The position numbers and the translations under genes are program-made. This document shows, in pieces, positions 46,076 through 46,318 of a stretch of DNA of 64,000 nt. Position 1 is the first letter of the stretch. Every line of letters begins with the position of its first letter. Source of the stretch: Halomonas elongata DSM 2581 (GTDB lineage Bacteria > Pseudomonadota > Gammaproteobacteria > Pseudomonadales > Halomonadaceae); contig NC_014532.2 in the NCBI RefSeq assembly GCF_000196875.2, positions 2,480,001 to 2,544,000 on the forward strand. Direction: 5' to 3'. Under the pieces are notes generated by a model. It had not been told where the DNA came from. It saw only the letters and a list, made by a program, of their open reading frames with translations, and searched no databases.

Positions 46076-46318
46076 CGCTTGACGGGGTGCCGTTGACGAC
46101 GGCTGAGATCATGCGAAAACAGCATGGATCCCGTTGAACCTGAGAGGGTGTTTACAAACTACTGCGCTCGGCCATGCCGCGTTGAAATCAGCCTCAAAAT
46201 GCTCATTTACCTCATCGTAAACTCCGCGTTTTCGGCTGATTTCGCCTAGCCCTGGCCATCGCTCGTGGCATTTGTAAATACCCTCTGCACTGGCTAGGAC
46301 CAGCGTAGGGATCAAGCG
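46076..46318 (+). promoter_or_regulatory. TPP riboswitch before thiC, interrupted by a MITE-like insertion
   Basis: All helices of the THI aptamer are present: P1 CGCTTGA (46076-46082) with TCAAGCG (46312-46318), P2/P3 with GGGGTGCC and GGCTGAGA, a P3a hairpin (CATGC with GCATG), P4 CCT (46139-46141) with AGG, and P5 CTGG with CCAG. J4/5, three bases in the tenA riboswitch, contains a 144-bp palindromic element. Whether TPP still binds is uncertain; the inserted RNA could fold as a separate hairpin. The thiC ribosome site starts 72 nt downstream. Confidence 0.85.
46143..46286. repeat. 144-bp MITE-like palindromic element with 16-bp terminal inverted repeats
   Basis: The ends are AGAGGGTGTTTACAAA (46143-46158) and the complement of 46271-46286 (AGAGGGTATTTACAAA), 15 of 16 bases identical. 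Inside, GAAATCAGCC (46184-46193) pairs with GGCTGATTTC (46234-46243), and TTTAC (46206-46210) with GTAAA (46217-46221), so the whole element can fold into one long stem. It has no coding capacity. No clear target-site duplication is visible. It looks like a non-autonomous repeat moved by a transposase encoded elsewhere. Confidence 0.8.

Follow-up and report, generated by a model that had tools for sequence, protein, structure and literature searches.

The tenA-thiC locus and its TPP-type leaders

The window that we analyzed is a 64,000-bp stretch of DNA, positions 2480001-2544000 of the 4.06-Mb single-contig genome of Halomonas elongata DSM 2581 (G000). It carries tenA and the adjacent thiC, in this order, with a TPP-type leader in front of each gene (Table 1). 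A GC-rich inverted repeat (CCGCCAGCAATGGCGG and similar sequence) lies directly upstream of the thiC aptamer at 45990-46075 and recurs in several relatives. Two more TPP aptamers, both above the Rfam cut-off, are present in the genome at 599529-599637 and 3869632-3869732 (L136, L137); the second is followed by a frame that we take to resemble ThiM.

Table 1. Positions in the window of the features of the tenA-thiC region and the evidence for each
Feature	Position	Strand	Evidence
tenA TPP riboswitch aptamer, intact	45092..45233	+	RF00059, 62.4 bits (cut-off 54.3)
tenA (thiaminase II family)	45302..45973	+	TIGR04306, 138.9 bits (cut-off 130)
thiC aptamer, 5' half	46076..46143	+	sequence; 19 uninterrupted thiC aptamers; RF00059 match under the cut-off
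Left target-duplication copy TGA, also P4/J4/5 bases	46141..46143	+	TNA duplications at other copies
MITE-like element, 142 bp, ends GAGGGTGTTTACAAA ... TTTGTAAATACCCTC	46144..46285	+	genome matches, ends, duplications, fold
Right target-duplication copy TGC (TGA with one base changed)	46286..46288	+	empty site CCTGA-ACTGG
thiC aptamer, 3' half	46289..46318	+	ACTGGCTAGGACCAGCGTAGGGATCAAGCG, the same in 14/19 uninterrupted relatives
Predicted expression platform, anti-SD CCTCCCT (46366-46372) / SD AAGGGAG (46390-46396)	46366..46396	+	local folds; leader alignment by eye
thiC (phosphomethylpyrimidine synthase)	46404..48293	+	NF006763, 1085.3 bits; TIGR00190, 719.9 bits

The thiC aptamer lacks no part of its sequence but is interrupted after GAACCTGA. 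Its 5' half consists of the 5' strand of P1, P2, P3, the J3/2 segment CTGAGA, the P4 strand CCT (46139-46141) and the G and A of J4/5; its 3' half consists of the following A of J4/5, P5 (CTGG/CCAG), J5/4 (CG), the 3' strand of P4 (AGG) and the 3' strand of P1. P1 pairs CGCTTGA (46076-46082) with TCAAGCG (46312-46318), and the conserved segments GGGGTGCC, CTGAGA, GAACCT and CCAGCGTAGGGA were all found, in agreement with the original prediction of an otherwise complete aptamer. The helix partners of P1, P2, P4 and P5 of RF00059 are kept; the contiguous P4-J4/5-P5 diphosphate helix is absent, as the element and its TGA/TGC duplication make a net insertion of 145 bp between the two A residues of J4/5. 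The element had been described as 144 bp long (46143-46286) with 16-bp inverted repeats. Its presence stands, but these limits were too wide by one base at either end, both belonging to the target duplication; the element measures 142 bp, with 15-bp repeats.

The thiC leader resembles the TPP riboswitch (THI element, RF00059) in its conserved segments, its P1-P5 partners, its place before thiC and its predicted SD-sequestering platform, and differs from it by the 145 extra nucleotides in the 5' strand of J4/5. Scoring against RF00059 with the element in place had been proposed earlier as a check, and the thiC locus gave 36.4 bits, below the 54.3 cut-off, the match taking the GAGGG of the element itself as a false 3' half. 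The locus is missing from the Rfam listing at the gathering threshold, and the outcome was the same in the second interrupted genome, G018. The uninterrupted thiC leader of G014, by comparison, scored 76.5 bits.

Local folds predicted the SD to be paired with upstream sequence in 21/21 leaders (0.97-1.00; no shuffled control). The partner is mostly CUCCCU-like and its site varies, G005 and G025 using another; the pair GUCUCC/GGAGAC of G016, G021 and G023 indicates that the pairing is kept despite the change in sequence. These folds suggest that the thiC switch is likely to be translational.

A single inherited insertion of a MITE-like element

The original prediction of a palindromic MITE-like insertion in J4/5 called for comparison with related genomes, and both the comparison and the ends of the element bear it out. 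The insert was missing from 19 of the 21 congeneric thiC leaders that we read, a sample that leans to uninterrupted leaders as most were chosen from Rfam matches, and was present only in G000 and G018. From P1 to P1 the aptamer measures 97-137 nt in the 19 uninterrupted leaders, 243 nt in G000 and 242 nt in G018. Fourteen of the 19 read GAACCTGA-ACTGGCTAGGACCAGCGTAGGGA; L5 is longer in four (G016, G019, G021 and G023), and G033 is different. In these five the 3' half ACTGGCTAGGACCAGCGTAGGGATCAAGCG varies in L5, and in G033 J4/5 varies too. Otherwise the length of the leaders varies at L5 and the P3-side hairpin but not at J4/5. In the four expanded leaders (L070, L069, L064 and L065, respectively) L5 is enlarged by a further hairpin, roughly 20-28 nt long (CTGGCTAAT..CCCTG..GAGGGTACCAG), a different way of lengthening the P4-P5 arm.

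Among 90 genomes of the genus, the exact interrupted junction GAACCTGAGAGGGTGTTTACAAA was found only in G000 and G018; seven further genomes gave matches at two or three mismatches, which were element ends elsewhere (in G070, the end of an IS). A search of public genome contigs with a 20-base junction returned one stretch, on Halomonas eurihalina MS1, which G018 is taken to be. The uninterrupted 33-base site was found in 39 of the 90 congeneric genomes (32 of 40 rows exact), and the 51 genomes lacking a match to it include G000, G018, the four genomes with a longer L5 and G033.

A tree of 21 tenA rows places G000 and G018 as sisters (support 100/99), with G014 next to the pair (89/74) and then G021 (99/97); the thiC leaders of both G014 and G021 are uninterrupted. 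Of 275 third positions in thiC, 35 differ between G000 and G018, indicating that the insertion is older than the split of the two species. It is a single old inherited insertion, orthologous in both. G017 and G036 were considered as further losses and set aside, since an aptamer of the thiC type was not found next to tenA in either; at these loci (L056, L057) the TPP switch of tenA is kept and is followed by other sequence.

We also searched an order-level set of 390 genomes, G018 left out, with a strict pattern for aptamer 5' halves, finding 124 places in 106 genomes. For 80 of these, matching by eye gave a partner in the 3'-end pattern. The remaining 44 comprise thiC of G000 and 43 others, each followed by an ordinary 3' half; the spacing is 14 in 42 of them and 46 in one whose L5 is long. 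By this pattern, one 5' half in 124 is interrupted, that of thiC in G000.

The element has terminal repeats consisting of GAGGGTGTTTACAAA and its inverse with one mismatch, an internal palindrome, and a length too short for a transposase. Together with TGC it folds alone at -62.5 kcal/mol, consistent with the predicted ability of the palindrome to fold back on itself. Matches to the element in G000 number 24 in the list, with 40 of 57 candidates scored; three are second pieces of listed copies and some cover only the core or parts. The terminal repeats occur nine times in the genome within one mismatch. The same family is present in G017, G018, G021 and G009. Among the fetched loci, with identical sequences counted once, 30 rows have both ends, comprising 29 MITE rows (27 with two orthologous pairs merged) and one IS. 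Identical TNA triplets flank 23 of the 30, and the thiC copy, TGA/TGC, differs at one base. A similar right-hand change was seen at three other G000 copies, namely L002 (TGA/TGC), L004 (TGA/TGG) and, by eye, L003 (TTA/TTC). The simplest history for the thiC copy would be a duplication of TGA and then one A to C change, common to both species.

Several longer variants exist, of 191 bp (L004, L008 and L109, with L003 similar) or 212 bp (L076, L102, L103 and L107), in which an extra stretch sits at one place as if by nested insertion; the 191-bp form includes CCCACATGGATGTGGG. In L005-L007 and L009-L013 the palindromic core (about 19-122 of the query) is joined to other outer ends, e.g. GGCTTTGTCTGAAA or AGGCATTGTCTGAAAA, and one core seems common to several repeat families.

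Duplications of TNA are linked to IS5 groups. G070 carries a 1204-bp element (L077:312-1515) with similar ends, GAAGGTGTTTACAAAA, and TCA duplications, which codes for a 372-aa IS5-family transposase (NF033580, 204.9 bits) and is a candidate mobilizer of the MITE. No relatives of this transposase were found in G000, G018 or G021. The thiC element is like MITEs derived from the IS5 family in being short and transposase-less, with 15-bp terminal repeats and many copies, and in the TNA duplications of its family; it is unlike them in that no relative of the G070 transposase was found in G000 or G018. It thus resembles an IS5-type MITE with no partner in the present-day genome.

Folding cost and the ligand pocket

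We calculated the cost of folding the aptamer alone with P1, P2, P4 and P5 enforced, with 18 uninterrupted relatives for comparison (G033 left out), using fold models that take no account of tertiary structure, Mg2+ or ligand. The cost was 6.0 kcal/mol in each interrupted genome compared to 5.3 kcal/mol for the flank-joined sequence, and lies just above all of the relatives (3.9-5.6 kcal/mol). For 200 shuffled inserts of the same dinucleotide content the mean was 13.3 kcal/mol (sd 2.8, minimum 7.0), and 0/200 reached 6.0. As had been proposed, the hairpin of the element is in silico compatible with the aptamer helices. The values suggest that the palindromic element is nearly silent on secondary structure, with both halves of the aptamer able to meet. 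By register, the left UG in P4, making four pairs, cost 6.7 kcal/mol, and the right, duplicated UG beside P5 cost 8.3 kcal/mol.

The sections of PMC3764141 that describe the E. coli aptamer (2gdi) place the conserved U59 and A80 in P4, G60 in J4-5, and C77 and G78 in J5-4; the metal ion is contacted by G60, C77 and G78, the pyrophosphate by G78, and L5 docks on P3. These contacts agree with the earlier assignment of J4/5 to the diphosphate-sensing part of the aptamer. We placed the E. coli positions on the thiC aptamer by eye, and the insert falls in the joint's 5' strand, one base past the G60 equivalent. With a side hairpin between P4 and P5, the docking of L5 on P3 could suffer as well.

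The changed base of the duplication bears on the same pocket. In the constrained fold this C pairs with the G78 equivalent, and such pairing in the left-register fold with a three-pair P4 would hide that base. In the predicted right-register fold the C stands in place of A61 and also pairs with the G78 equivalent unless the pocket opens. A search for natural TPP aptamers matched 13 genomes; in five of them, by eye, C replaces the A that follows CCUG in J4/5 (G251, G273, G354, G466 and G475), whereas two of the other eight matches are shorter variants and six appear to be due to chance. The insertion, though compatible with the helices, is probably harmful to TPP binding.

Probable consequences for thiC regulation

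We favor, as a reading with a fair margin of doubt, one ancestral insertion that broke one strand of the pocket, leaving TPP affinity reduced or lost, thiC partly or wholly derepressed and tenA normal. A short non-autonomous IS5-type element would have inserted once in the common ancestor of H. elongata and Halomonas eurihalina, at CTGA within the conserved CCUGA of the thiC TPP aptamer, duplicating TGA and placing a self-complementary hairpin of about 142 nt between two bases of the J4/5 5' strand. The hairpin would fold on itself and misfold the rest of the aptamer little, so that the halves may still meet, and the diphosphate-Mg2+ pocket between P4 and P5 would be broken on one strand. With the insertion, its orthology, the nature of the element and the compatibility of the secondary structures established, we infer that TPP affinity is down or gone and that thiC is partly or wholly released from TPP repression via the SD-sequestering platform; tenA would retain its normal switch. 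In TPP switches the apo state is generally the ON state, and if this holds here a weakened aptamer would mean a derepressed thiC. Against this, unenforced folds of the full leader left the SD of both interrupted leaders closed whether or not the aptamer was constrained; among the 19 leaders folded, only G016 (0.47) and G034 (0.32) showed a clearly open SD when free.

The divergence of the two interrupted aptamers could be read against impairment. Their halves differ between G000 and G018 by one substitution in 101 bases, located in the P3-side loop, compared to 35/275 at thiC third positions, as would be expected of a working switch. The binomial probability of 1/101 is 1.7e-5 against the third positions, 0.007 against 7/103 intergenic bases, 0.04 and 0.05 against two orthologous related repeats, and 0.53 against one orthologous copy of the same element (3/191). 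The answer thus depends on the yardstick, and we claim no selection. Conservation specific to the thiC element was likewise rejected as proof of function, as the L008/L109 copy (3/191) is as slow as the thiC copy (2/141).

A working hybrid, which we hold possible but rather unlikely, would bind TPP with near-normal or modestly lower affinity and carry the element as a side hairpin out of P4. In the right register the duplicated UGA beside P5 would rebuild U59-G60 opposite U79-A80 and C77-G78 (E. coli numbering); in a variant, the left register would work as a three-way junction. Both registers can be folded with the helices enforced, C in place of A61 has natural examples, and both species, inspected by eye, keep every conserved aptamer position outside the insert and the duplication's right copy. 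However, the right register is 3.0 kcal/mol dearer than the flank-joined aptamer, the cheapest interrupted fold exceeds the maximum among the uninterrupted relatives, pairing of the changed C with the G78 equivalent is possible, and slow divergence is found outside the aptamer as well. A self-mending insertion, in which the duplication restores the pocket bases past the element and the switch regulates thiC with a dose response altered relative to that of tenA, seems to us doubtful.

It is improbable, in our estimate, that the element brings new control through an internal promoter or an antisense RNA, making thiC independent of the upstream leader. A transcript begun inside the element would be without the 5' half of the aptamer, and the portion of a review dealing with MITE transcripts (PMC10969869) raises the idea that these might form riboswitches or terminators, but a simple consensus scan of 45970-46420, element included, found no sigma-70-like promoter or terminator. 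An assembly error or a conserved RNA expansion, either of which the original prediction named as fatal to it, can be practically dismissed: the insert is seen in two genomes only, but the same junction occurs in a second assembly, of another species, element copies elsewhere have terminal repeats and target duplications, relatives have the empty site, and the extra length of G016, G019, G021 and G023 sits in L5, not J4/5.

A comparable case is a pneumococcal BOX element lying between two trp T-box riboswitches that, in the relevant passage of PMC3049150, appear to its authors to be still functional. Both involve a mobile repeat inserted within a riboswitch leader; the BOX element lies between two whole T-boxes, whereas the thiC element lies inside the ligand pocket of one aptamer. 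Excerpts of the open-licence PMC literature yielded no precedent for a riboswitch aptamer interrupted by a mobile element. We regard this arrangement, a TPP riboswitch with a MITE inserted in its ligand pocket, as a new variant built of known parts and not as a new kind of system.

Annotation by covariance models can miss such interrupted switches. The thiC leader of H. elongata offers a naturally split aptamer with a before/after comparison, two species having the insert and many relatives the empty site, and an internal comparison in the uninterrupted TPP switch that lies 1 kb from it. Two questions thereby become testable: how much disruption of the chain the diphosphate half of a TPP aptamer can withstand, and whether structured RNAs can take up hairpin-forming elements without much cost in folding.
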